This document shows positions 31,332 through 44,400 of a stretch of DNA of 64,000 bases, piece after piece; the first letter of the stretch is position 1; each line of letters begins with the position of its first letter. The translations under genes and the position numbers were made by a program. This DNA comes from Victivallis lenta. GTDB taxonomy: Bacteria; Verrucomicrobiota; Lentisphaeria; Victivallales; Victivallaceae. Location: NCBI RefSeq assembly GCF_009695545.1, contig NZ_VUNS01000010.1, positions 1-64,000 on the forward strand, in the 5' to 3' direction. The notes below the pieces were generated by a model. It worked only from the letters and a program-made list of their open reading frames with translations, was not told where the DNA came from and did no database searches.

Positions 31332-31375
31332 AAAACTCGACAATGAAGTTTCCACGAGGATGGGAGGAACTGATC

Positions 31376-34057
31376 ATGGCTGACAAGAAGAAAGAAGTGT
31401 TGGATCCCGAGCAGGCAAAGCTTCGGGAGGAGCAGGACCGCGAGATGCTCAATGCGCTGATCGCCCGCGTCAAGGCCGCGCAGGTCAGGTACGCGGAGTA
31501 CACGCAGGAACAGGTCGACAGGATTTTCGCAGCGGCGGCGCTTGCCGCGAACAATGCGCGGATTCCGCTGGCGCAGATGGCGGTCGCCGAATCCGGTATG
31601 GGCGTGGTGGAAGACAAAGTGATCAAGAATCACTTCGCCTCCGAATACATCTACAATAAATACCGCGACATGAAAACCTGCGGCGTCATCGAGGAAAACG
31701 AGGCGATGGGCATCGCGAAGGTCGCGGAGCCGGTCGGCGTCATCGCCGGCATCGTTCCGACCACGAACCCGACCTCGACCGCGATCTTCAAGTCGCTGCT
31801 GGCGCTGAAGACCCGCAACGGCATCATTTTCAGCCCGCACCCGCGTGCCAAGAAGAGCACCATCGAGGCGGCCCGCATCGTGCTCGAGGCGGCCGTCAAG
31901 GCCGGTGCTCCGGAGGATATCATCGGCTGGATCGAGAATCCGACCGTTGCGCTCTCCGGCCACCTGATGAGCCATCCGGACATCAGCCTGATTCTCGCCA
32001 CCGGCGGCCCCGGCATGGTCAAAGCGGCTTATTCGAGCGGTACTCCGGCGGTCGGTGTCGGCCCCGGCAACACCCCGGTCGTCATGGGTGAAACCTGCGA
32101 CATCAAGATGGCTGTGAGCTCGGTCCTGCAGAGCAAGACCTTCGACAACGGCATGATCTGCGCCTCCGAGCAGTCGGTGACGGCGGTCGCGTCGATCTAT
32201 GACGCGGTCAAGAAGGAGTTTGCCTACCGCGGCGCCCACATCCTCACCAGGGCAGAGGCGGAGAAGGTCGGCAACGTGATCCAGATCGACGGCAAGCTCA
32301 ACCCGAAAATCGTCGGCCAGAGCGCCTACAGGATCGCCGAGATGGCCGGCGTCACCGTCCCCTCCGACACGAAGGTGCTGATTGCGGAGACCGACGGCGT
32401 CGGCCCGGATTACCCGTTCAGCCGCGAAAAGCTCTCCCCGGTGCTCGCCCTCTACAAGGCGAAGGACTTCGAGGCCGCCGTCGAGAATGCGAAGAAGCTG
32501 CTTGAGTACGGGGGGCTCGGCCATACCAGCGTGCTCTACACGAATTCCCAGAATTTCGACCGCGCGAAATATTACGGACATGTCATGATGTCCTCGCGCA
32601 CGCTGGTCAACATGCCCTCCAGCCAGGGCGCGATCGGCGACATCTACAACTTCGCGCTGAATCCGTCGCTGACCCTCGGCTGCGGCAGCTGGGGCGGCAA
32701 TTCGGTCAGCGAGAACGTCACGCCGGAACAGCTGCTGAACATCAAAACGATTGCGAAACGGAGAGAGAATATGCTGTGGGTCCGCATTCCGGAGAAGGTC
32801 TACTTCAAATACGGCTGTTTGCCGGTCGCGCTCGGCGACCTCGAAGGGCGCAAGCGCGCATTCATCGTGACGGACAAGTTCCTCTACTCGACCGGCATCC
32901 TCGCCGATCTGCTGCACAAGCTCGATTCGATGGGCATTGCGACCGAGGTGTTCGCGGACGTCGAGCCCGACCCGACCATTCAGCTGGCCCGCAAGGGGCT
33001 TGAGCGGATCAACTCGTTTCAGCCCGACGCGATCATCGCGGTCGGCGGCGGCAGCCCGATTGACGCGGCCAAGATCATGTGGCTCATGTATGAGCTGCCG
33101 GAGATCAGCTTCGAGGATGTCGCGATGCGGTTCATGGATATCCGCAAGCGCATCGTGAAGCTGCCGGAGCTCGGCAAGAAGGCGACGATGGTCGCGATCC
33201 CGACCACTTCCGGCACCGGTTCGGAAGTCACGCCGTTCGCGGTCATCACCGATGCCGACACCGGCAACAAGTACCCGCTCGCGGATTATGCGCTGACTCC
33301 GAAAATGGCGATCATCGATACGCAGCTCGTCATGAAGATGCCGAAGCGGCTGACCGCGTACAGCGGCATCGACGCCCTGACCCACGCCCTTGAGGCGCGC
33401 GTCTCGGTCATGGCCAGCGACTATACGAACTCCCTTGCGAACGAAGCGGCCAAGCTCGTCTTCGAATACCTGCCGCGCTGCTTCAACAACGGCGCGATGG
33501 ATGAGGAGGCGCGCGAGCATATGCACAACGCCTCGACCATGGCCGGCATGGCGTTCGCGAACGCGTTCCTCGGCGTCTGCCACTCGATGGCGCACAAGCT
33601 CGGCGGCATGTACCACATTCCGCACGGCCTTGCGAACGCGATGCTGATCTGCGAGGTGATCCGCTTCAATGCGACCGACGTTCCGACCAAGCAGGGGACC
33701 TTCCCGCAGTACAAGTATCCGAATGCGAAGGCCGCTTATGCGAATATCGCGACCTACTGCGGCTTCGGCGGCAGGTCCGACGACGAGAAGGTCGAAAAGC
33801 TGATCGCCGCGATCGAGAAGCTGAAGGCCGAGCTCGAAATTCCGAAGAGCATCAAGGAGTACGGCATCGACGAGGCGACCTTCCTCGCGCAGCTCGACGA
33901 ACTCGCCCTCAAGGCGTTCGACGACCAGTGCACCGGCGCGAATCCGCGCTATCCGCTGGTCTCCGAGCTCAAGGAGATTCTGCTGAAGGTCTACTACGGC
34001 GAAGAGTACGCCGGCCGGCGGGCCGAGCTTCCCGGTGAAAAACCGGCGGCAATGTAA
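31376..34057 (+). CDS. adhE: Bifunctional acetaldehyde-CoA/alcohol dehydrogenase
   Basis: An 893-residue fusion enzyme that reduces acetyl-CoA to acetaldehyde and then ethanol with NADH. The N-terminal aldehyde dehydrogenase half has the catalytic Cys262 in GMICASEQSV and the TNPTSTAIFK motif. A linker with a second dinucleotide site (GGGSPIDAAK) leads into the C-terminal iron-dependent alcohol dehydrogenase (TTSGTGSEVTPFAVI; His ligands in GVCHSMAHKLGGMYHIPHG). Length is typical for AdhE. ATG 31376 follows GGAGG at 8 nt; an upstream ATG (31343) lacks an RBS. It adjoins the hydrogenase island, linking ethanol and H2 as electron sinks. Confidence 0.97.
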   Translation: MADKKKEVLDPEQAKLREEQDREMLNALIARVKAAQVRYAEYTQEQVDRIFAAAALAANNARIPLAQMAVAESGMGVVEDKVIKNHFASEYIYNKYRDMKTCGVIEENEAMGIAKVAEPVGVIAGIVPTTNPTSTAIFKSLLALKTRNGIIFSPHPRAKKSTIEAARIVLEAAVKAGAPEDIIGWIENPTVALSGHLMSHPDISLILATGGPGMVKAAYSSGTPAVGVGPGNTPVVMGETCDIKMAVSSVLQSKTFDNGMICASEQSVTAVASIYDAVKKEFAYRGAHILTRAEAEKVGNVIQIDGKLNPKIVGQSAYRIAEMAGVTVPSDTKVLIAETDGVGPDYPFSREKLSPVLALYKAKDFEAAVENAKKLLEYGGLGHTSVLYTNSQNFDRAKYYGHVMMSSRTLVNMPSSQGAIGDIYNFALNPSLTLGCGSWGGNSVSENVTPEQLLNIKTIAKRRENMLWVRIPEKVYFKYGCLPVALGDLEGRKRAFIVTDKFLYSTGILADLLHKLDSMGIATEVFADVEPDPTIQLARKGLERINSFQPDAIIAVGGGSPIDAAKIMWLMYELPEISFEDVAMRFMDIRKRIVKLPELGKKATMVAIPTTSGTGSEVTPFAVITDADTGNKYPLADYALTPKMAIIDTQLVMKMPKRLTAYSGIDALTHALEARVSVMASDYTNSLANEAAKLVFEYLPRCFNNGAMDEEAREHMHNASTMAGMAFANAFLGVCHSMAHKLGGMYHIPHGLANAMLICEVIRFNATDVPTKQGTFPQYKYPNAKAAYANIATYCGFGGRSDDEKVEKLIAAIEKLKAELEIPKSIKEYGIDEATFLAQLDELALKAFDDQCTGANPRYPLVSELKEILLKVYYGEEYAGRRAELPGEKPAAM

Positions 34058-34067
34058 TTCCCATCCG

Positions 34068-34110
34068 GGCGGATGCGGAGGGGCGGCGCCCCTTTGTGTC
34101 CGCCTTTTTT
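34068..34110 (+). terminator. Rho-independent terminator of adhE
   Basis: GGCGGA (34068-34073) pairs with TCCGCC (34099-34104) outside an inner AGGGGC..GCCCCT stem, followed by TTTTTT. Confidence 0.8.
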
Positions 34111-34151: not shown

Positions 34152-34180
34152 TTGAAATTCGCTCCGGAAAACTGTACATT
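34152..34180 (+). promoter_or_regulatory. Promoter of the plus-strand hydrogenase operon
   Basis: TTGAAA (34152-34157), 17-nt spacer, TACATT (34175-34180). A 7-bp inverted repeat AATTCGC (34156-34162) / GCGAATT (34194-34200) flanks the -10 and could be a regulatory dyad. Confidence 0.5.
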
Positions 34181-34217: not shown

Positions 34218-34475
34218 ATGGCGAAATCTAAAATTGTGATCTGTCTCGGAAGTTCCTGTTTTGCACGCGGCAACGAAGAGAACATCAAGGTCGTGGAGAA
34301 TTACCTCTCCGCGAACTCCTATCAGGACGATGTCGACGTCGAACTCTCCGGAACGCTCTGCCAGGGGCGTTGCGCCGACGGTCCGAATGTGATTATCGAC
34401 GGCGAGTTTTACAGCAAGGTGGATCCCGGCGTGATGCTCGATCTGCTGAAACGGCTGCTGCCGCCCCGGGCCTGA
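34218..34475 (+). CDS. Thioredoxin-fold [2Fe-2S] ferredoxin, HydS module copy 1
   Basis: An 85-residue protein of the NuoE/HydC-like thioredoxin-fold ferredoxin type. Cluster ligands are visible as CLGSSC (N-terminal pair) and CQGRC (C-terminal pair). It probably passes electrons to or from the sensory hydrogenase encoded 50 nt downstream. Its counterpart at 43479 has the same CxGSSCFARGN opening (81 aa), so the two are paralogues. First gene of a five-gene operon. Confidence 0.85.
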   Translation: MAKSKIVICLGSSCFARGNEENIKVVENYLSANSYQDDVDVELSGTLCQGRCADGPNVIIDGEFYSKVDPGVMLDLLKRLLPPRA

Positions 34476-34525
34476 CAGGAACGGTCTGCGGTTTTCCCGC
34501 GCAACCCAGCATGGAGAAAATTGAA

Positions 34526-36241
34526 ATGAATCTGCATTTCCCGGTGTTCACCACCGAAAACATATGTCACGACTGTTACAAGTGCATCCGCCATTGCCCG
34601 TGCAAGGCAATCCGCATCGTCGACGGCCGCGCCGGAGTCATTCAGGAGCTCTGCGTGGCCTGCGGCATGTGCGTGAAGGTCTGCCCGGCCCACGCGAAGA
34701 AGATCCGTCCCGACCTGGCGCGTGCGCGTTATCTGCTCGGCAGCGGGAAAAAGGTCTATGCATCGCTGGCGCCGTCGTTCGTGAGCTTCTTCAAGCAGTA
34801 CGAGCCGGGAGCGCTTGTTGCGGCGCTGAAGCGTCTCGGTTTTGCCGGCGTCAGCGAGACCGCGCTCGGCGCGCAGGCGGTCAGCGCCGAGACCGGCGCG
34901 TTTCTCGCGCAGGCGAAGCCCGGCATCTACCTTTCGAGCGCCTGTCCGGCGGTCGTGGATTATGTGAAGAAATATGCGCCGGCCTATGTCGGCAACATCA
35001 CGTCGGTGCTTTCGCCGCTCCTGTCGCATGCAAGGCTGCTGCGCAGGGAGTTCGGCGACGATATCGGCATCGTGTTCTTCGGCCCCTGCGCCGCGAAGAA
35101 GAACGAGGCGGACCGGCACGCCGATCTGCTCGACCTGGCGCTGACTTTCGACGATCTCGCCGAATGGCTCTCCGCCGAGAACATCGATCCGGCCCGGATC
35201 AACGCCGCTGATTACGCGAAAATGGTTCCCGAAACCGCGCGGGAAGGGAAGATCTATGCTGTCGAAGGCGGTATGAACGACACGCTGCGCGACCCGAAGG
35301 GCGGTGATATCCGCTATCACGCCGTCTCCGGGCTGCACAATCTGGCCCGGCTGCTGAAGGACCCGCCGGAAAAGATCGATACCGGCAGCTGCAAGCTTTT
35401 CATCGAGTGTCTCGCCTGTTCCGGCGGCTGCGTGAACGGCCCGGTGATGCCGCAGAACGATGCCGGCACCCTGTCGTCGATCGTCCAGGTGGCCCGCGGT
35501 TATGACGGGACGAACAGTCTTGCGCGCACGGTCGACGTTCCGATCGACGAACGGATCATCGCCGAACCGCAGACCGATCCGGAGGTGACCGAGGAGGACA
35601 TCAAGAACGCCCTCGCTTCTGTCGGGAAATTCACTCCTGCGGATGAGTTGAACTGCGGCGGCTGCGGCTACTTCAGCTGCCGCGATTTCGCGAAAGCGCT
35701 GCTGGCCAACAAGGCCGAGGTCGGCATGTGCGTGTCGCACCTGCGGCAGCTCGCGCAGAAGAAGAGCAACGCGCTGATCCGCTATATTCCGGCCGGCGTC
35801 GTGATCGTCGACCGCCACATGAAGATCGTCGAATGCAACCGCCGTTTTGCGGAGCTGTTCGACGAGGATACGGTGCTCGCCTACGATTCGTGCGGCGGGC
35901 TGACCGGCGCGGAGCTCGGCGCGTTCGCCGATTTCAGCGACCTCGTGGCGGCGGCGCTGATTTCCGGCGGCGAGGTCGAGCGGCACAACCAGGTGTGCGG
36001 CGACAAGATTCTGAACATCAGCGTATTCTGCATCGCGCAGAACCAGAGCGTCGGCGCGATCATTCAGGACGTGACGAGCCTCGAGCTCCATCGCGAACAG
36101 GTTTCGGAGAAGGCGCGCAAGGTGATCCAGAAGAACATCATCACCTGCCAGAAGATCGCCCGCGACCTCGGCGAACATATGGCCGAGACCGAAATCCTGC
36201 TGCGCGAGGTCGCCGGCAGTTACACCGAAATCAAGAAGTGA
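34526..36241 (+). CDS. hydS: Sensory [FeFe]-hydrogenase with PAS domain (HydS-like), copy 1
   Basis: A 571-residue protein. Residues 10-60 carry two [4Fe-4S] motifs (CHDCYKCIRHCP, CVACGMCVKVCP). The H-cluster domain follows (75-305): LSSACPAVV (Ala139-Cys140), GPCAAKKNE (Cys188) and ECLACSGGC (Cys298, Cys302). A four-Cys Fe-S domain comes next (about 420-460; NCGGCGYFSC), then a PAS domain (about 475-545; YIPAGVVIVDRHMKIVECNRRFAELF). Ala in place of the proton-transfer Cys of TSCCPAW is the trait of sensory group C enzymes. ATG 34526 is preferred over 34511 because GGAG precedes it and copy 2 starts at the same point. Probably senses H2 or redox state and signals to the phosphatase encoded 7 nt downstream. 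Confidence 0.88.
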   Translation: MNLHFPVFTTENICHDCYKCIRHCPCKAIRIVDGRAGVIQELCVACGMCVKVCPAHAKKIRPDLARARYLLGSGKKVYASLAPSFVSFFKQYEPGALVAALKRLGFAGVSETALGAQAVSAETGAFLAQAKPGIYLSSACPAVVDYVKKYAPAYVGNITSVLSPLLSHARLLRREFGDDIGIVFFGPCAAKKNEADRHADLLDLALTFDDLAEWLSAENIDPARINAADYAKMVPETAREGKIYAVEGGMNDTLRDPKGGDIRYHAVSGLHNLARLLKDPPEKIDTGSCKLFIECLACSGGCVNGPVMPQNDAGTLSSIVQVARGYDGTNSLARTVDVPIDERIIAEPQTDPEVTEEDIKNALASVGKFTPADELNCGGCGYFSCRDFAKALLANKAEVGMCVSHLRQLAQKKSNALIRYIPAGVVIVDRHMKIVECNRRFAELFDEDTVLAYDSCGGLTGAELGAFADFSDLVAAALISGGEVERHNQVCGDKILNISVFCIAQNQSVGAIIQDVTSLELHREQVSEKARKVIQKNIITCQKIARDLGEHMAETEILLREVAGSYTEIKK

Positions 36242-36248
36242 GCCGAAG

Positions 36249-37436
36249 ATGTCGAACGATGTATTTGTCGAAATGGAGTGCAGCCAGCTCTTTCACGACG
36301 GGGAGGAGGTCTGCGGCGACGATTTTCTGTTCGAGCGGCTCGAGGCGGAGAACCGGCACCTCGCCGTGCTCTCCGACGGGCTCGGCAGCGGGATCAAGGC
36401 GAATCTGCTCGCATCGATGACCACGACGATGGCGATGAAGTTCATCCGCTCCGACATGGATGTCCTGCAGTCGGCCGAGATCATCATGGATACGCTGCCG
36501 GTCTGCGAGATCCGCAAGATCAGCTACGCGACCTTCACGGTTTTCGACCTTCAGATCGGAGGGAAATCCCGTATTATCGAGATGGACAATCCGCCGTTCA
36601 TCCACCTGCGCAACAACAAGGATCTTCAGGTCAAGCGCCAGAGCATGGTCTCCGAGCGCTGGCCGGACCGGCGGGTGCAGCTGGCCGAGCTTTACGCGAT
36701 CACCGGCGACCGGCTCATCGCGTTTTCGGACGGGGTGACGCAGGCCGGCCTCGGGCAGCCCGGCTATAAATTCGGCTGGCGGCGCGAGGGGTGCCTCGCC
36801 TTTATCCAGCAGAAGGTTGCGGAGTGCCCGGATATTTCGGCGCGCGATCTGTCGCAGGCGGTCGTCGCCGCCGCGCGAATGCGCAACAAGGACAACCGCT
36901 GCATCGACGACATCAGCTGCATGGTCATCTACCTGCGGCAGCCGCGGCGGCTGCGGCTGCTGACCGGGCCGCCGTTCCGTCCGGAGTCCGACGCGGCTTA
37001 CGCTTCGCTGGTGAAGAACTTCGACGGCAAGTGCATTCTCTGCGGCGGCACGACGGCCAACATCGTGTCGCGCGAGCTCAAGCGCCCGGTTGAGGTCGAT
37101 ATGAAGCTGATGCTGAAGGCCGGTTCGCTGCCGCCGCCGGCCAGACTCGAAGGAGTGGACCTCGTGACGGAGGGCATTCTCACGCTGACTGATGTGGCGC
37201 AGCGGCTCGAATCGGGGTCGGCGCTCTCCGGCAACGTGCCGCTGGCGGCTCGGCAGATGATCGAGCTTTTCCGCCAGAGCGACGAAATCGAGTTCGTGGT
37301 CGGCACGAAGGTCAACGAAGCGCACCAGGACCCGAGCCTGCCCGTGGACCTCGAAATCCGCCGCAACATCGTCAAGCGGCTCAAGACGGTGCTTGAAAGC
37401 AAATATCGGAAACGCGTACTATTGCGATTTTTTTAG
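36249..37436 (+). CDS. SpoIIE-type serine/threonine phosphatase, HydS-associated, copy 1
   Basis: A 395-residue PP2C-superfamily phosphatase. Residues 1-235 hold the SpoIIE-like domain with metal-binding Asp motifs LAVLSDGLGSGIKANLLA, LIAFSDGVTQAGLG and DDISCMVIYL. Residues about 240-395 form a C-terminal domain shared with copy 2 (LLTGPPF, CGGTTANIVSREL, INEAHQDPNLPVDLE-like stretch); I know no function for it. Phosphatases of this type lie beside group C hydrogenases in several anaerobes and are thought to form the output of H2 sensing. The substrate is unknown; no partner kinase is in the window. Confidence 0.85.
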   Translation: MSNDVFVEMECSQLFHDGEEVCGDDFLFERLEAENRHLAVLSDGLGSGIKANLLASMTTTMAMKFIRSDMDVLQSAEIIMDTLPVCEIRKISYATFTVFDLQIGGKSRIIEMDNPPFIHLRNNKDLQVKRQSMVSERWPDRRVQLAELYAITGDRLIAFSDGVTQAGLGQPGYKFGWRREGCLAFIQQKVAECPDISARDLSQAVVAAARMRNKDNRCIDDISCMVIYLRQPRRLRLLTGPPFRPESDAAYASLVKNFDGKCILCGGTTANIVSRELKRPVEVDMKLMLKAGSLPPPARLEGVDLVTEGILTLTDVAQRLESGSALSGNVPLAARQMIELFRQSDEIEFVVGTKVNEAHQDPSLPVDLEIRRNIVKRLKTVLESKYRKRVLLRFF

Positions 37437-37451
37437 AAAGGAAAATGCAGC

Positions 37452-37724
37452 ATGGCGAATAAGATCAAAGTGGAGATCTGTCTCGGAACCACCTGTTATG
37501 TTCTCGGGTCGTTCCGGCTTTCGGCGCTGGAAGAGCAGTTGCCGCCCGAATTCAAAGACCGGGTGGAAGTGGTGGGCTGTGCCTGCCTCGACGTCTGCCA
37601 CGACCGCAACTACGGCAACGCCCCGTTTGTCCGGATCGATGAAAAGCGCATCGTCGACAATGCGACGATCGAAAAGGTCATCGACATTCTTCGCGAAGAG
37701 TATTTCGCGGGAGGTGCTGAATGA
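37452..37724 (+). CDS. Thioredoxin-fold ferredoxin-like protein next to HydA
   Basis: A 90-residue protein with CLGTTCYVLGS and VVGCACLDVCHD, a NuoE/HydC-like cysteine layout that differs from the HydS-linked ferredoxins by one extra Cys and a basic stretch. Presumably carries a [2Fe-2S] cluster for the hydrogenase encoded next, with which it overlaps by 4 nt (ATGA). AAAGGA lies about 10 nt upstream. Confidence 0.8.
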   Translation: MANKIKVEICLGTTCYVLGSFRLSALEEQLPPEFKDRVEVVGCACLDVCHDRNYGNAPFVRIDEKRIVDNATIEKVIDILREEYFAGGAE

Positions 37725-39112
37725 ATAATGCCGAGAGGACGCGCCGTCAGCTCATGATCCGTTTCGTTCAGGACTTCTATGACGGGACATTGGAGCAGAA
37801 CATCGACCGGATTCCGGTTGAAATGCGTCCGCGCGATTACGAGCCGAACCGCTGCTGCATCTACAAGGACCGCGCCATGCTGAAATACCGGCTGATGGCG
37901 CTGATGGGGTTCGGCATGGAGGAAGAGACCGATGAGACGCGCCAGCTGAAGGAGTATCTGGTCGACGCGAAGGCCGGGAACAACAATACCGATCCGGTGC
38001 TTACGGTCTGCTCCGTCGGCTGCCACGGCTGCGTCGACAGCCATGTGCAGGTTTCGAACAGCTGCGTCGGCTGCTTTGCGCGGCCGTGCGTCGGCGCCTG
38101 CCCGAAGCAGGCGATTTCCGTTGTGAAGGGCCGCTCGACCATCGACCGGACCAAGTGCATCAACTGCGGCAAGTGCATGACGGTCTGCCCGTACCATGCG
38201 ATCATCCGCAACCCGCTGCCGTGCGAGGACGCCTGTCCGGTCGGCGCGATCGGGAAGGGGGAGGACGGCCTTGTCCGGATCGACTTCGACCGCTGCATCT
38301 ATTGCGGCAAATGCTTCCGCTCCTGTCCGTTCAGCGCGATTATGGAGCGTTCGCAGCTGACCGGCATTCTCGAAGCGATGAAGGAGGGGAAAAAGGTTAT
38401 TGCGATGGTCGCGCCGTCGATCACCGACCAGTTCCCCGGCACCATCGAGCAGTTGTTCAAGGCGCTCAAGATCGCCGGCTTTTCGGATATCATGGAGGTC
38501 GCGCTCGGCGCTGAGCTGACCACCGAGCACGAGGCAGAGGAGTTCTTTGAACGCATGGGCAAGGGCGACAAGCTCATGACCAGCAGCTGCTGTCCGGCCT
38601 GGGTCGAGGCGGCGAAGCGGCATGTTCCCGAGATCCTGCCGTTCGTCTCCTCCACGCCGAGCCCGATGGCTTATGCCGGGCAGCTGACCGCGAAAGAGCA
38701 TCCGGATGCGGTCAAGGTGTTCATCGGCCCCTGTATTGCGAAGCGGCGCGAGGCGCAGCAGGACCCGAATGTCGATTTCGTCATGACCTTCGAGGAGCTC
38801 GGCGCGCTGCTGGCGGCGCTGGAGATCGACGTGATTTCGCTTGAAGCTCCGCCGCTCGAGTGTCCGGCCGCGAGTTACGCGCGGAACTTTGCGAAGAGCT
38901 GCGGAGTTTCGCAGGCGATTCTGCAGGAGATCGGCAAGGAGGGGGACAACGGGACGCGCCCGAAGATCGACGAGAAGTTCATCAACGGTCTCGACCGCAA
39001 GTCCGTCAATCTGCTGAAGCTCTACGCCAAGGGAAAACTGCCCGGCAATTTCGTCGAAGTCATGGCGTGCGCCGGCGGCTGTGTCGGCGGCCCATGCTCG
39101 CTCGCCCGCTGA
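37721..39112 (+). CDS. hydA: [FeFe]-hydrogenase, catalytic type (group B-like)
   Basis: A 463-residue monomeric hydrogenase. An N-terminal domain (1-90) with RCCIYKDRAMLKYR precedes an Fe-S-rich region (97-205; CSVGCHGC, CINCGKCMTVCP, CIYCGKCFRSCP). The H-cluster domain has all three signatures: TSSCCPAW (Cys290-Cys291), GPCIAKRRE (Cys338) and EVMACAGGC (Cys450, Cys454). Both L1 cysteines are present, so it should turn over H2, unlike the HydS copies. The N-terminal layout recalls group B enzymes. It probably disposes of reduced ferredoxin as H2. Maturases HydE/F/G are not in the window. Confidence 0.92.
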   Translation: MNNAERTRRQLMIRFVQDFYDGTLEQNIDRIPVEMRPRDYEPNRCCIYKDRAMLKYRLMALMGFGMEEETDETRQLKEYLVDAKAGNNNTDPVLTVCSVGCHGCVDSHVQVSNSCVGCFARPCVGACPKQAISVVKGRSTIDRTKCINCGKCMTVCPYHAIIRNPLPCEDACPVGAIGKGEDGLVRIDFDRCIYCGKCFRSCPFSAIMERSQLTGILEAMKEGKKVIAMVAPSITDQFPGTIEQLFKALKIAGFSDIMEVALGAELTTEHEAEEFFERMGKGDKLMTSSCCPAWVEAAKRHVPEILPFVSSTPSPMAYAGQLTAKEHPDAVKVFIGPCIAKRREAQQDPNVDFVMTFEELGALLAALEIDVISLEAPPLECPAASYARNFAKSCGVSQAILQEIGKEGDNGTRPKIDEKFINGLDRKSVNLLKLYAKGKLPGNFVEVMACAGGCVGGPCSLAR

Positions 39113-39131
39113 GCGCCGGCGGGGAGATACG

Positions 39132-39166
39132 AAAAAGGAGGCTGTTTCCGCCTCCTTTTTTTTTTT
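39132..39166. terminator. Bidirectional terminator between hydA and eis-like gene
   Basis: GGAGGC (39137-39142) and GCCTCC (39150-39155) flank a 7-nt loop, with A5 before and a run of 11 T after. It therefore serves the plus-strand hydrogenase operon strongly and the convergent acetyltransferase gene more weakly. Confidence 0.85.
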
Positions 39167-39192
39167 ATCTCCTTCCGGCGGACCGGCGCGCT

Positions 39193-40401
39193 TCAGATGT
39201 AGTCGGAGATATAGGCTTTCTCCTTCGGGATCAGATTATTCAGCAACTTCAGCGTCTCCTCGTCGGTTTTGAGCCGTCCCATCTTCTGCAGGTAGGAGGG
39301 GCTCTTGTAGCTGAGCAGCAGCGCCGTCAGTGTGCCGATATCGAGTTCGACCGGGCGGACGGACTCCTCCGGGAGCAGCTCGACCGCTCCATTTTCCGCA
39401 AGGCGGATGGAGAAGGTGCGGTTGTTCCACTCGAGGAACGGGTCATGCACCCGGAACGTGAGTTCCTCGCCGCCCCGGCAGTTGGCAAACCGGTATTGTT
39501 CGAGAAACTGGGCCACATCCACGATCCGTCCCATGATGTAGGGGCGGATCGTTTCGCGGATGTCGCTGTCCTCGAGCCAGAAGGCGATGGATTCGTTGGA
39601 GTAGTTGTTGCCCACAACTTCATCGACCATGGACTCATGGGCGCTGATGTATTTCCACAGCCCTTTCCAGGCGTCGATGTCGAGATAAATCATTTCCTTG
39701 ATGTGCATGATGTTGTCTTTCAGCAGATACACCATGTATCCGGTCGGGGTGTCGTGATCGTCGTAGTAGAGGGCGACGGTGGTGTCGTCCACATCCCAGC
39801 GCCAGTACTCCTCCCACGCCAGGTCGTTGCGCAGCAGGCAGCCGTGAGTCTGCGCGGCGAAGATGTTGTGCAGCCGTTTGAGGTCGGGATTGTTCTCCTC
39901 CACCCGGCGCACATAGCCGCCGATGCTGATTTTGCGCGGCAGCTGGTTGTCCTTGATCCGGAAGGACATCTTGTCGGAGATGATCTCCCAGCCCCGGTGC
40001 CGGTAGAGCGGAATGGAGAACGGGTAGAGGATCGCCAGACACTCGCCGAGTTCGCGCATCTCTTCAAGGCTGCGCCGCATCAGCCGCGACATCAGTCCGA
40101 GCCCGGTATACTCCGGATAGGTCGCCACGCTGGTGATGAAGCCGATCCGGCAGATATGGCCGAAGATATTCATCTTCAGGGGATATACCGCGAATTGCGA
40201 GGCCAGGTGCCCGTGGTCGAACCAGCCGATCACCCGGGCTTTCTCCAGCACCGGCCTTTTCGACTGCCGGATGTCCTCGTTCTCCCAACCGTAGTCGAGC
40301 AGTTGTTTCTCCGTGACCTGAAATGCGTAGCGCAGCAGATCGTTATATTGTTCCAGATCCTGCTCCGCCATCAATTTTCTGATTTGCATGTCGTCCGCCA
40401 T
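39193..40401 (-). CDS. Eis-family GNAT N-acetyltransferase
   Basis: A 402-residue protein with an N-terminal GNAT fold (FITSVATYPEYTGLGLMSRLMRRSLEEM holds the acetyl-CoA-binding V-x-P-x-x-x-G-x-G/L region) and a second GNAT-like plus SCP2-like C-terminal half (ELTFRVHDPFLEWNNRTFSI), the Eis layout. Eis enzymes acetylate amines of aminoglycosides, peptides or proteins. ATG 40401 has AGGAGG 7 nt upstream; the in-frame start at 40449 has no RBS. It lies 127 nt behind the SpoIIE-type gene of copy 2, on the same strand, so it may be the last gene of the rex operon. Confidence 0.8.
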   Translation of the reverse strand: MADDMQIRKLMAEQDLEQYNDLLRYAFQVTEKQLLDYGWENEDIRQSKRPVLEKARVIGWFDHGHLASQFAVYPLKMNIFGHICRIGFITSVATYPEYTGLGLMSRLMRRSLEEMRELGECLAILYPFSIPLYRHRGWEIISDKMSFRIKDNQLPRKISIGGYVRRVEENNPDLKRLHNIFAAQTHGCLLRNDLAWEEYWRWDVDDTTVALYYDDHDTPTGYMVYLLKDNIMHIKEMIYLDIDAWKGLWKYISAHESMVDEVVGNNYSNESIAFWLEDSDIRETIRPYIMGRIVDVAQFLEQYRFANCRGGEELTFRVHDPFLEWNNRTFSIRLAENGAVELLPEESVRPVELDIGTLTALLLSYKSPSYLQKMGRLKTDEETLKLLNNLIPKEKAYISDYI

Positions 40402-40528
40402 GATATGCCTCCTCATTGCGTATATGGGGTTATTTGGAAATAACGGCACGCCCTCCGGGGCGTGATTCGATTGTTATGAAATTCAGTATCCGCTCCGGCG
40501 ACGCCTCTTCCCGCGGCCGGAAACCGTA

Positions 40529-41737
40529 TCAGACAAAGGTGATCCGCACCTCCTTCATGTAACGGTTGCGCAGCGCCTCCGCCAGGCGCTTGACGATGTT
40601 GCGCCGAAGCTCGAGGTCGACCGGCAGATTCGGGTCCTGGTGCGCTTCGTTGATCCGGGTGCCGACCAGAAAATCGATGATGTCGTTCCGGCGCATGAGT
40701 TCGACGAGCTGTCCGGCCGGGTCGTTCCTGCCGTGTTCGCCGTTTTCGAGATAGGTCGCGGCGCGTGAAAGCGTGAAGATGCCCTCCGTCACGAGGTCGG
40801 CACCCGCCATCTTCGACATCGGCGGCAGGTCGCTCGTAATCGTGTCGAGCACGAGTTCGAGCGGCGTGCCGAGCTCGCGGGAGATGATTTCGGCCGAAGT
40901 TCCGCCGCAGATGACCTTGGTTCCCGCGAAGTCGCGGAACAGCCCGGCGCACTCCGCATCGCGCGCCTGGTCGAACGGGGGGCCGGTGAACAGCAGCATG
41001 CGGTGCGGTTTGCGGAAATAGAGGCAGGCCGCCGTGATGTCGTCCGCCGGCCGCAGCCCCGGTTCATGGGCAATCGCTTCGCGGAGGATCCGTTCGGTGA
41101 GCTCCTGAGCCGAGATATCCGGCGAGGCGGCCAGCTGCGCCTTCACATAGTCGCTGACGCCGGAGTTGCGCCAGCCGAGCGGAAAGCGAGGACTGCCGAG
41201 CCCCGCCTGCGTGACTCCGTCCGAGAAGAAGAGCACCCGGTCGTTCGGCTGGGCCTGGAAGGTGTAGGCGGTCATCGTCCGGTCCTGATATTTGGGGGAC
41301 GCGAATTCGTCGCCTTTGACCGGCAGTTCGTCGCCGCCGCGGAACAGCAGGAACTCCGGATTGCCCATCTCGACCACGCGGGTGATCCCGCCGAGCCGGG
41401 TGTCGACGATCGTGAAGGTCGCGTAGCTGATCTGGCGCACCCGGCAGACCGGCAGCGAATCCATGATGATTTCGGCGGAGTGGACGATTTCACGGTCTTC
41501 CGCGCTGAATCGCAGCGCCATCGTGGTCGTCATCAGGGCAAGGATGTTGGCCTTGAGCCCGTGGCCGAGTCCGTCGGCCAGCACGGCGAGCAGCCGCTCC
41601 TCGGCCGGAATGCGTTTGAAGGCGACCGCGTCGCCGCACGCTTTCTCGTCGTAGTGGCAGCACTGGCTGTAACCGGTGTCGATGAACAGATTCTCGGTGG
41701 CGAGATTCATTTTCTGCCGGACTGGGGTCGGACTCAT
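40529..41737 (-). CDS. SpoIIE-type serine/threonine phosphatase, HydS-associated, copy 2
   Basis: A 402-residue paralogue of the copy 1 phosphatase. Motifs are LAVLADGLGHGLKANILA, LFFSDGVTQAGLG and ADDITAACLYF for metals, and the C-terminal domain repeats LFTGPPF, CGGTSAEIISREL and INEAHQDPNLPVDLELRRNIVKRL. The start at 41737 overlaps the hydS stop by 4 nt (ATGA); a later in-frame Met (about 9 codons on) is a less likely start. Differences from copy 1 are spread over the whole length, so the duplication is old. Confidence 0.85.
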   Translation of the reverse strand: MSPTPVRQKMNLATENLFIDTGYSQCCHYDEKACGDAVAFKRIPAEERLLAVLADGLGHGLKANILALMTTTMALRFSAEDREIVHSAEIIMDSLPVCRVRQISYATFTIVDTRLGGITRVVEMGNPEFLLFRGGDELPVKGDEFASPKYQDRTMTAYTFQAQPNDRVLFFSDGVTQAGLGSPRFPLGWRNSGVSDYVKAQLAASPDISAQELTERILREAIAHEPGLRPADDITAACLYFRKPHRMLLFTGPPFDQARDAECAGLFRDFAGTKVICGGTSAEIISRELGTPLELVLDTITSDLPPMSKMAGADLVTEGIFTLSRAATYLENGEHGRNDPAGQLVELMRRNDIIDFLVGTRINEAHQDPNLPVDLELRRNIVKRLAEALRNRYMKEVRITFV

Positions 41738-43482
41738 TTTTCCTGCTCCGGATCTTTGGGGTCGCTCATGAGATCCCGGTCGTCGGCATAGTCGTCGGCG
41801 ATCGAACGGAGCAGCAGCTCGGTGTCGGCCATCTGTTCGCCGAGACGGCAGGCGATCTCCTGCACGGTTGCGATGTTGCGGTCGATGACCTCGCGGGCGC
41901 GGGCGGCGATCTGTTCGCGCCTGAGTTCGGTCTTGGTCACGTCGAAAACCACGCCGCCGATGACTTCGCCGGGGTCGATGTTGAAGATGTTCACGCTGAA
42001 CAGCCGTTTGCCGACCTTCAGCGAGTCGCGCCGGATGTCGCGGCCGCTCTGGAGCGACGATTCGAAGAGGTTGGCGAACGGGACGATCCGGGTCAGGTCC
42101 GCGCCGGCCATGCCGGGACAGGCGTCGAACGCATCGAGGATCTCTTCGCCGAAAAGCTTTGCGAAGTTCCGGTTGCACTCGATGATCTGCATCTTCTTGT
42201 CGACGATCACGGCGCCGGAGGACATGCTGCGCAGCAGGGCGTTCGCTTTTTTCTGCGCCTGCTTTTTCAGGTACGACACGCACATCGACGGCTCCGCATG
42301 CCCGGCGATGAGCGCCTGCGCGAAGTTCCGGCACGTGTCGTAGCCGCATCCGTCGCAGTTCAATTCGTCCTCGGGGGTGGTCTTGCCGATGCTGCGGAGC
42401 GCGGCCTGCACGTCGGCGGCGCCCGGCGCGGGGGCCGGAACCGCATCTTCCGGGAATGCTGCCGCGATCTCTCCGGCGGTCTCCCGCCGTTTCGGCGCCG
42501 CGGGGTAACGGGTCTTGCCGAGCACCCGGAGCCGTTCGAGCAGTCCCGGCGAATCGTGTTCCGTGCAGGGGCCGTGAACGCAGCCGCCGGGGCAGGCGAG
42601 GGTTTCGATGAAGATGATTTCGTCTTCCGGAATGTCATCCAGTCCGTCGAGCGCGAGCTTCAGGTTGTCCAGCCCGGTCAGCGTGAAATAGTGTACGCGC
42701 TTGTTTCTGCTCTGGAACTGGATCGTGTCGTTCATGCCGCCTTCGACCGGATACTGTGCGCCTTCCTCGGCCGTTTCGGGAATGAAGCGGTCGTCCTCCT
42801 CCGGAGTCAGCCGCTCCGGCTCGATCTTGTTTTCGCGCAGCAGCTGTTTGAGTTCAGGGTAGGTGATGGCCAGATTCAGCAGCGCCGGATTGCGGTCCGC
42901 CTCGTTCTTCTTGCTGATGCACGGCCCGACGAAGACCACCCGGATGTCGTTCCCGAAGGTGTCGCGCAGCAGCCGGCAGTGGGCCATGAGCGGCGAACCG
43001 ACCGGCGTGATGTTCGACGCGAGGCGCGGAATGTATTTGCGGATATAGTCGACCGCGGTCGGGCAGGCGGAGGAGAGCAGCAGCCCGGGTTTGCCGCCGT
43101 CAAGCTCCCCGGCGACCTGCGCCGAGACGAGCTGGGCGCCGAGCGCGGTTTCGCTGACTCCGGCAAAACCGAGAAGCTTCAGCGCCCGGATCAGCTGACC
43201 CGGCGTGACGTTCTTGAATTCGCTGACCCACGAGGGGGCGAGCGAGGCGTAGACCGGTGCCGGTTCCGCGAGCAGCCGCTTCAGCCGCCCGGTGTCGTTG
43301 CGGACCTGCTTGGCCTTGACCGGGCAGACCTCGACGCATTTGCCGCAGGCGACGCAGAGTTCCGGCAGGACGGCCGCATGGCCGTCGCGCACGCGGATCG
43401 CCTTGACCGGACAGTGGCGGACGCACTTGTAGCAGTCCTGACATTCGGCTTCGATGGTGTAGACGGGGTAGGTGTGATTCAT
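41734..43482 (-). CDS. hydS: Sensory [FeFe]-hydrogenase with PAS domain (HydS-like), copy 2
   Basis: A 582-residue paralogue of copy 1 with the same domain order: two [4Fe-4S] motifs (CQDCYKCVRHCP, CVACGKCVEVCP), then the H-cluster domain with LSSACPTAV (Ala139-Cys140), GPCISKKNE and ETLACPGGC. A four-Cys domain (NCDGCGYDTC), a PAS domain (MSSGAVIVDKKMQIIECNRNFAKLF) and a C-terminal helix follow. The proton-transfer Cys is again Ala. A Pro/Ala-rich linker (about residues 335-355) sets it apart from copy 1. It starts at 43482, overlapping the ferredoxin stop by 4 nt. Confidence 0.88.
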   Translation of the reverse strand: MNHTYPVYTIEAECQDCYKCVRHCPVKAIRVRDGHAAVLPELCVACGKCVEVCPVKAKQVRNDTGRLKRLLAEPAPVYASLAPSWVSEFKNVTPGQLIRALKLLGFAGVSETALGAQLVSAQVAGELDGGKPGLLLSSACPTAVDYIRKYIPRLASNITPVGSPLMAHCRLLRDTFGNDIRVVFVGPCISKKNEADRNPALLNLAITYPELKQLLRENKIEPERLTPEEDDRFIPETAEEGAQYPVEGGMNDTIQFQSRNKRVHYFTLTGLDNLKLALDGLDDIPEDEIIFIETLACPGGCVHGPCTEHDSPGLLERLRVLGKTRYPAAPKRRETAGEIAAAFPEDAVPAPAPGAADVQAALRSIGKTTPEDELNCDGCGYDTCRNFAQALIAGHAEPSMCVSYLKKQAQKKANALLRSMSSGAVIVDKKMQIIECNRNFAKLFGEEILDAFDACPGMAGADLTRIVPFANLFESSLQSGRDIRRDSLKVGKRLFSVNIFNIDPGEVIGGVVFDVTKTELRREQIAARAREVIDRNIATVQEIACRLGEQMADTELLLRSIADDYADDRDLMSDPKDPEQEK

Positions 43483-43724
43483 GGCGCATCCTTCCTCAGC
43501 TTGGAATCGAGCAGGTCGATCAGGGTTTCGGAGTCGACCTGCTCGAATGCTTCGCCGTCGATCGAGAGGTTCGGGCCGGAACGGCATCTGCCGACGCAGC
43601 CGCGGCCGTTGAGCGCGCAGTCGATCTTGTATCTGGCGAGATACTCCTCGATGATTTTCAGATTGCGCTTGTTGCCGCGCGCGAAACAGGAGCTGCCCAT
43701 GCAGATGGTGATCGTGTGTTTCAT
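43479..43724 (-). CDS. Thioredoxin-fold [2Fe-2S] ferredoxin, HydS module copy 2
   Basis: An 81-residue paralogue of the protein at 34218: CMGSSCFARGN and CVGRCRSG supply four cluster cysteines. Overlaps rex upstream and hydS downstream by 4 nt each, which predicts equimolar, coupled synthesis of Rex, ferredoxin and HydS. Confidence 0.85.
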   Translation of the reverse strand: MKHTITICMGSSCFARGNKRNLKIIEEYLARYKIDCALNGRGCVGRCRSGPNLSIDGEAFEQVDSETLIDLLDSKLRKDAP

Positions 43725-44386
43725 TGCTTATCCTCCCCGCAGCCGTCGATTTCGCGCAGTCTCCGGGCCAGTTTGACCGACAGCACCGCGAAATCACCGG
43801 CGAGATTGACCTTCTGCCGGATGATATCCTCCGGCAGCAGCAGTGTGTGCCCGGTGAAATTCCAGATGGCGAGAATTCCGGCCTCGACCATCTTTTCGGC
43901 GACCTCCTGGGCGGCATCGTCCGGCACGCAGAGAATCGCCATGCGGATCTGAAGCCGCCGCGTCAGGTGCGGAAATTCAGCGAAGTCGAAGACCGGCACA
44001 TCGTGAACGAGCGTATCTTTCGGAACCGGTCCCTTGTCGAAGGCCGCGATGATTTTGAGCCCGTAGTCCGCGAAGCCGCGGTAGCCGAGCAGCGCCGTGC
44101 CGAGGTGGCCGGTACCGACCAGGAACGCTTCGGAGGCGTTTTTCCAGCCGAGAAAGCTCTCGAGCGCGTCGATGAGCGGTTCGACCTGATAACCGACGCC
44201 GGGCGAACCGGCGGCTCCGATCATCTCGAGGTCTTTGCGCACGCTGATCGCGTCGATCCGGAGCGCGCGGGCCAGGACCGGGCTCGTGGCGTGCAGCCGG
44301 CCGGCGGCCTGCAGCTTCTTGAGTTCGCGCAGGTAGGCCGGGAGGCGCTTGAGAGCGGGAATGCTGAAAACCTGGGGTTTGGCCAT
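43721..44386 (-). CDS. rex: Redox-sensing transcriptional repressor Rex
   Basis: A 221-residue Rex protein. The winged-helix domain (about 1-80) has IPALKRLPAYLRELKKLQAAGR and ALRIDAISVRKDLEMIG. A Rossmann domain (about 85-205; FLVGTGHLGTALLGY) follows, with a helix that swaps in the dimer. Rex binds DNA at low NADH/NAD and releases it when NADH rises, derepressing fermentative genes. ATG 44386 follows GGAG at 9 nt. It heads the coupled operon with the second HydS module, a direct genetic tie between NADH sensing and hydrogenase sensing. Likely targets include adhE, hydA and its own operon. Confidence 0.92.
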   Translation of the reverse strand: MAKPQVFSIPALKRLPAYLRELKKLQAAGRLHATSPVLARALRIDAISVRKDLEMIGAAGSPGVGYQVEPLIDALESFLGWKNASEAFLVGTGHLGTALLGYRGFADYGLKIIAAFDKGPVPKDTLVHDVPVFDFAEFPHLTRRLQIRMAILCVPDDAAQEVAEKMVEAGILAIWNFTGHTLLLPEDIIRQKVNLAGDFAVLSVKLARRLREIDGCGEDKQ

Positions 44387-44400
44387 ATCGTTCTCCATAT

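Follow-up and report, generated by a model that had tools for sequence, protein, structure and literature searches.

How fermenting anaerobes sense H2 and split electrons between hydrogen and ethanol is the question addressed here. Sensory [FeFe] hydrogenases have been studied by spectroscopy, and their signalling output is still being sought. In Ruminococcus albus, a cluster encoding a ferredoxin hydrogenase, AdhE and a sensory hydrogenase shows a 111-fold drop in low-H2 co-culture (PMC6776011). In Thermoanaerobacterium saccharolyticum, deletion of hfsB increases adhE expression (PMC5707799), and a Rex site with the same geometry as the operator described below is predicted for the hfs operon (PMC5886521). 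In Hydrogenedentota, group C3 genes adjoin group A3 hydrogenases (PMC11406978). Here we describe a locus of Victivallis lenta (order Victivallales) in a 64,000-nt stretch of contig NZ_VUNS01000010.1 (the window). It contains two convergent modules, each with a [2Fe-2S] protein, a sensory-type hydrogenase (HydS) and a SpoIIE-type phosphatase (PPM): module 1 (Fd1-HydS1-PPM1-Fdm-HydA) on the plus strand and module 2 (rex-Fd2-HydS2-PPM2) on the minus strand. Gene calls and profile searches confirmed the claim of an initial annotation that this trio occurs twice in opposite orientation, and its placing of module 1 in an operon with HydA and of module 2 in one with Rex was borne out. adhE, which that description did not include, lies directly upstream of module 1.

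We think it likely that the locus contains two separately inherited H2 sensors, one for each class of hydrogenase, with a common NADH-responsive operator that is probably read by Rex. The evidence from sequence is gene content, orthology, partner specificity, intact catalytic motifs, purifying selection and operator distribution. A search of the order with HydS1 as query covered 137 genomes and found HydS relatives in 67, and 82 HydS-bearing loci from other genomes were annotated with the proteins of the window and of hydCBA. Two types of operon are present. Among the 41 HydS1 loci, 39 have a group B1 HydA in the order Fd-HydS-PPM-Fdm-HydA (the other two are on short-cut contigs), and adhE is near module 1 in 25. 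Among the 41 HydS2 loci, 21 carry a trimeric group A hydrogenase, hydC-hydB-hydA, on the 3' side of rex-Fd-HydS-PPM, and the intact rex-Fd-HydS2-PPM2-hydCBA arrangement is found in many genera (loci L049, L084, L095, L101 and L102). The hydCBA operon encodes HydC/NuoE-, HydB/NuoF- and HydA-like subunits together, which is the bifurcating type, and the enzyme would be expected to bifurcate electrons. Crossed pairing was not seen in any locus: HydS1 occurs with the trimer in none and HydS2 with a B1 hydrogenase in none (Fisher p ~1e-16, with related genomes counted separately).

The phylogeny of both HydS copies, which the initial annotation had suggested, places them in two separate clades that are common to other genera and families. 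In a tree of 74 HydS sequences (quick method, with SH-like approximate likelihood ratio test [SH-aLRT] support), the HydS1 clade has a support of 100 and the HydS2 clade 84, with a core at 97, and the two clades are sisters with moderate support. Among the order's rows the hydrogenase partner switches once on the tree, and HydS2 monophyly is compatible with the data. Outside the order (Spirochaetota, Melainabacteria, Pseudomonadota, Bacteroidota), HydS mostly accompanies a B1 hydrogenase. Based on the two operon types, the tree and the pattern of partners, we conclude that the modules in the window are ancient paralogues sorted by hydrogenase class. The outcome that the initial annotation had named as refuting its own idea, a near-universal pair with identical function, holds only in part: the pair is common (27 of the 67 genomes with HydS), but its two members have different partners.

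The V. lenta genome has five genes with an [FeFe] catalytic domain, three at the locus and two that are the hydA genes of trimers. One hydCBA operon, on contig C19 (L123), encodes a HydA that is 81% identical to the HydS2-linked copy in genome G066. The second trimer, on contig C18 (L124), is a rex-hydCBA operon with its own rex. Throughout this genus module 2 has no neighbouring hydCBA; hydCBA is found elsewhere, twice in this genome. Judging from this gene order, module 2 has separated from hydCBA in this genus.

Both sensors have an N-terminal ferredoxin domain, an H-domain and a C-terminal Cx2Cx4Cx16C iron-sulfur (FeS) motif (C377-C380-C385-C402 in HydS1) that is invariant in the HydS alignment and matches PF04060. 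The PAS domain is above the Pfam cut-off of 21.8 bits in HydS1 (23.1) and just below it in HydS2 (20.7). The H-cluster cysteines C140, C188, C298 and C302 are present in all 82 HydS sequences, and three other sites, whose residues mark sensory enzymes, are altered: the C299 site is Ala in 82/82, the M353 site Gly in 80/82 and the M497 site Leu in 82/82. By the H-domain, the altered residues and the FeS motif, HydS1 and HydS2 are predicted to be group C sensory [FeFe] hydrogenases that sense H2. They are 48-49% identical in amino acid sequence, so the locus does hold two diverged sensors, as had been proposed. None of the 82 sequences revealed a sensor-specific difference between HydS1 and HydS2 at the C299, M353 or M497 sites. 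A difference was found at position 304 (HydS1 numbering), two residues past the last H-cluster cysteine, which is Asn in 41/41 HydS1 and His in 35/41 HydS2. Ratios of nonsynonymous to synonymous substitution rates (dN/dS) against congeners are 0.04-0.19 for both modules and indicate that both are maintained under purifying selection. In one relative (G136), HydS1 appears to be split into two frames (L118:7945-9617), by a frameshift or a sequencing error.

The two phosphatases are 47% identical in amino acid sequence. Their metal-binding residues D43, D161, D220 and D221 are invariant in the phosphatase alignment, and the best PDB matches of the fold are 3pu9 and SpoIIE 5mqh (Foldseek, with an AlphaFold2 [AF2] model). 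Both carry an extra C-terminal domain of ~165 residues (36933-37433, plus strand, and 40532-41026, minus strand) that is kept across phyla, has the motif NEAHQDPxLPVDLEIRRNIVKR and is modelled confidently by AF2 (predicted local distance difference test score 89). We found no relatives of this domain in Pfam or the PDB by sequence or fold; its best fold match has a template modelling score (TM-score) to the query of 0.48 and an E-value above 0.001. Output or partner binding would be a candidate function of the domain. Elsewhere in this genome, on contig C21, there is one RsbW-like gene with no obvious link to the modules.

The palindrome TNGATA-N6-TATCNA, with an A/T-rich spacer, came to light in a scan of upstream regions that was aimed at canonical Rex sites. 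Across the order it is found before adhE/module 1, rex/module 2 and hydCBA. The fetched loci, 1.40 Mb in all, contain it 53 times, and in 48 cases it is no more than 350 bp ahead of adhE, Fd1, rex or hydC. Because these loci were chosen around hydrogenases, the genome-wide test carries more weight. The whole 5.5-Mb genome has four copies of the strict form. One precedes adhE/module 1, two precede the trimer operons (rex-hydCBA on C18 and hydCBA on C19), and the fourth is at an unrelated place on contig C17. Nine genomes of the genus have 24 strict sites and none of the reversed pattern, and ~21 of the 24 precede the three operons, two of them by orthology at a contig edge. Before adhE, three palindromes share half-sites and end 10 bp upstream of the gene, an array that suggests cooperative binding. 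The copy on C17 (C17:105637; L228:8637) is the sole strict copy in the genome that has neither a hydrogenase nor adhE nearby; the genes beside it resemble, by eye, those for a metallophosphatase and a RodA/FtsW protein.

Rex probably reads this operator. Rex is present in 120 of the 137 genomes of the order, a near-ubiquity that makes its presence alone non-discriminating, and the alternative is that some other regulator, perhaps one controlled by the phosphatases, binds the motif. We regard that alternative as unlikely. It would fit the departure of the motif from canonical TTGTGA/TTGTTA half-sites and the lack of the motif at rex/module 2 in this genus. However, the operator has the 18-bp geometry of a Rex site, and it preserves the spacing of the G and A, three positions apart, that are contacted by Arg48 and Lys49 in the structure of T. 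maritima (Thermotoga maritima) Rex with DNA (PMC8836258). Victivallales Rex keeps the Arg-Lys pair in its recognition helix (VRKDLEMIG), but its residues at the positions of Ser52 and Arg60 are different. Other genera have the motif in front of rex itself. In some genomes of the order (L073, L075, L077, L079, L115) canonical-type sites replace TNGATA at the same places, which suggests a shift of operator specificity within the order. A literature search found no Rex motif described for Lentisphaerae or Victivallales, which is no proof of novelty.

From these data and those on R. albus and Thermoanaerobacterium we infer a working model that spans H2 sensing, the coupling of HydS to its phosphatase, the phosphatase target, Rex as reader and bifurcation by the trimer. 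Module 1, behind adhE, would be the control and enzyme operon for a group B1 ferredoxin hydrogenase and ethanol formation, and module 2 would be the control part of a trimeric group A hydCBA operon. In HydS, the H-cluster and FeS relay would change redox state in response to H2, and the PAS domain would signal this to the SpoIIE-type phosphatase of the same module. That phosphatase would then reset a phosphoprotein through which the cognate hydrogenase is adjusted in expression or activity. Control by HydS1 would fall on the ferredoxin hydrogenase and AdhE, and control by HydS2 on the trimeric hydrogenase. A second input, NADH/NAD+, would enter through Rex at the operators before adhE/module 1 and hydCBA. 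More tentatively, and as somewhat short of an even prospect, we suggest a two-sensor, one-repressor form of control in which a Rex that has changed its DNA specificity to TNGATA-N6-TATCNA links HydS1-PPM1 with HydS2-PPM2. With rex and HydS2 pointing towards the operon that they probably control, the H2 and NADH/NAD+ signals could meet at one locus in this genome.

Several observations weigh against two class-specific sensors under a Rex operator. The rex/module 2 operon of this genus lacks the operator that other genera have there. No canonical Rex site (TTGTNA-N6-TNACAA) was found near the locus, and the window has one weak, distant match, as expected by chance; the case for Rex as reader thus rests on geometry and neighbourhood. 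No hydrogenase neighbours HydS2 in 20 of 41 loci (some of these contigs are short), so the link to the trimer may be lost functionally too. We found no gene for a kinase, STAS or anti-sigma partner in the locus. Lastly, deletion of hfsC or hfsD in T. saccharolyticum leaves adhE expression unchanged (PMC5707799), which suggests that the phosphatase output may not act on adhE.

The initial annotation had proposed that both sensors act on the single HydA or on the same phosphoprotein, at two affinities or as antagonists, in which case the mirrored arrangement itself would be functional. We consider this improbable. The modules are physically adjacent in this genome, module 2 is apart from hydCBA throughout the genus and so could have been re-used, and the His/Asn exchange close to the final H-cluster cysteine could shift affinity. 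But adjacency is seen in only one of the 27 genomes with both modules, HydS2 is found with the trimer and is never linked to a B1 HydA elsewhere in the order, HydS1 is never found with the trimer, and the two sensors do not differ at the C299, M353 and M497 sites.

The view of the mirror as an evolved unit did not hold up either. In the stretches fetched from the 26 other genomes that carry both modules, the modules are adjacent in none, so the mirror is a juxtaposition seen only here. They are on different contigs in the five closest congeners (G130-G134), ~740 kb apart in G126 and ~40 kb apart in G023. The sequence 3' of HydA is at least 3.6 kb of other DNA in G130-G134, compared with the 1.4-kb gap between HydA and PPM2 here. 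The flank of module 1 on the adhE side is kept in most of the genus, and the remaining flanks are not. The modules flank HydA and its ferredoxin, as had been noted, but that description was imprecise: a GNAT/SCP2 acetyltransferase gene, probably unrelated to both modules, also lies between them. G134 and G130 have its orthologues at other places, and a search of six congeners yielded none.

The facing arrangement appears to be a rearrangement particular to this genome, with an assembly join less probable. That the junction (39112-40529) joins two distant regions in error would account for its occurring in no congener and for the variable neighbours of both modules between genomes. We think this very improbable, given that the assembly, in 78 contigs, has a completeness of 99.9% and a contamination of 0.48%, that the junction spans a whole GNAT gene with congeneric orthologues, and that module flanks vary freely in this genus. 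Insertion of module 2 as a cassette behind HydA was rejected, as the flanks of both modules are non-syntenic in congeners. The MATE gene 3' of HydA in G133 sits on another contig in this genome, and with the non-syntenic flanks this meant that no clean empty site was found; nothing in this genome matches the gene that lies 3' of PPM2 in G133. The idea that one module was recently duplicated in place, and inverted, around HydA was rejected and is practically refuted by the tree, because, although inverted-repeat DNA arms of 74-77% complementarity are still visible between the modules, the low amino acid identities of HydS and PPM show that the duplication is not recent, the copies fall in separate clades spanning other genera and families, and the modules are unlinked in congeners.

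Table 1. Features of the locus. Coordinates are positions in the window; the anatomy is from gene calls and profile searches.
Feature	Position	Strand	Basis
Putative Rex-type operator array, three overlapping palindromes TAGATAAAAAAATATCGA, TCGATGTTTAAATATCGA, TCGATATTAAGATATCAA	31288..31333	.	Kept across order and genus
adhE, bifunctional aldehyde/alcohol dehydrogenase	31343..34057	+	Pfam PF00171, PF00465, PF25137
Terminator-like hairpin 3' of adhE, 18 pairs, T run	34067..34105	+	Consensus match only
Promoter-like site 5' of module 1	34152..34180	+	Consensus match only
Fd1, thioredoxin-like [2Fe-2S] protein	34218..34475	+	PF01257, 44.6 bits
HydS1, sensory-type [FeFe] hydrogenase, C-terminal FeS and PAS, B1-linked clade	34526..36241	+	Fer4, PF02906, PF04060, PF13188; alignment; tree
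PPM1, SpoIIE-type Ser/Thr phosphatase with C-terminal domain (~residues 229-395) without library match	36249..37436	+	PF07228; AF2 model, Foldseek
Fdm, second thioredoxin-like [2Fe-2S] protein, directly 5' of HydA	37452..37724	+	PF01257, 23.3 bits, just under the 24.8 cut-off
HydA, monomeric group B1 [FeFe] hydrogenase	37721..39112	+	TIGR04105, 511.3 bits (cut-off 450)
Terminator-like hairpin closing module 1	39131..39161	+	Consensus match only
GNAT/SCP2-type acetyltransferase between the modules	39193..40449	-	PF13527, PF17668, PF13530
PPM2, SpoIIE-type phosphatase, C-terminal domain as in PPM1	40529..41716	-	PF07228, 54.9 bits
HydS2, sensory-type [FeFe] hydrogenase, trimer-linked clade	41734..43479	-	PF02906, PF04060, sub-threshold PAS; alignment; tree
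Fd2, thioredoxin-like [2Fe-2S] protein	43479..43724	-	PF01257, 34.1 bits
rex, NADH/NAD+-responsive repressor, first gene of module 2	43721..44398	-	NF003994, 235.9 bits (cut-off 130); matches solved Rex structures

The TIGR04105 match to HydA is near full length (positions 3-459 of 462), and Fdm is kept in nearly all module 1 loci of the order.

Paralogous sensors cleanly sorted by hydrogenase offer a natural comparison for studying how sensor, phosphatase and target are coupled. The order-specific operator provides a concrete, cheap test of whether Rex is linked to the same operons, and the C-terminal domain of the phosphatases could be the missing output step. In the literature searched we did not find a paralogous pair sorted by hydrogenase class, a rex gene heading a sensor operon or the TNGATA operator, and for the T. 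maritima and Hydrogenedentota systems we found no description of rex as first gene or of a coexisting B1-linked paralogue.

The R. albus cluster, which is H2-responsive, shares with this locus adhE, a ferredoxin-dependent [FeFe] hydrogenase, a sensory hydrogenase with a PAS domain, and a Ser/Thr regulatory protein; R. albus also has a separate bifurcating hydrogenase, comparable to the bifurcating-type trimers here. The report on it describes one sensor, classes the catalytic enzyme as A1 rather than B1, and does not report a second, rex-linked module of the kind found in V. lenta (PMC6776011). Thermoanaerobacterium hfsABCD has a PAS-bearing [FeFe] hydrogenase (HfsB), a serine phosphatase homologue (HfsC) and a ferredoxin hydrogenase (HfsD) (PMC5707799, PMC11837493), also with a Rex-type site upstream (PMC5886521). 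It differs in that HfsA is not described as a thioredoxin-like ferredoxin, there is one module, and adhE is elsewhere. PPM1 and PPM2 have the PP2C fold and metal-binding Asp motifs of SpoIIE/RsbU phosphatases; unlike those, they add the C-terminal domain, and the locus is without partner-switch genes. T. maritima HydS shares the altered C299, M353 and M497 sites, with Ser at the M497 site where Leu is found here (PMC10055695). The sensory hydrogenase of Hydrogenedentota is encoded beside a trimer, like module 2 (PMC11406978). Counterparts of both modules have been described, the R. albus cluster and hfs for module 1 and the C3 genes beside A3 hydrogenases for module 2 (PMC11406978).

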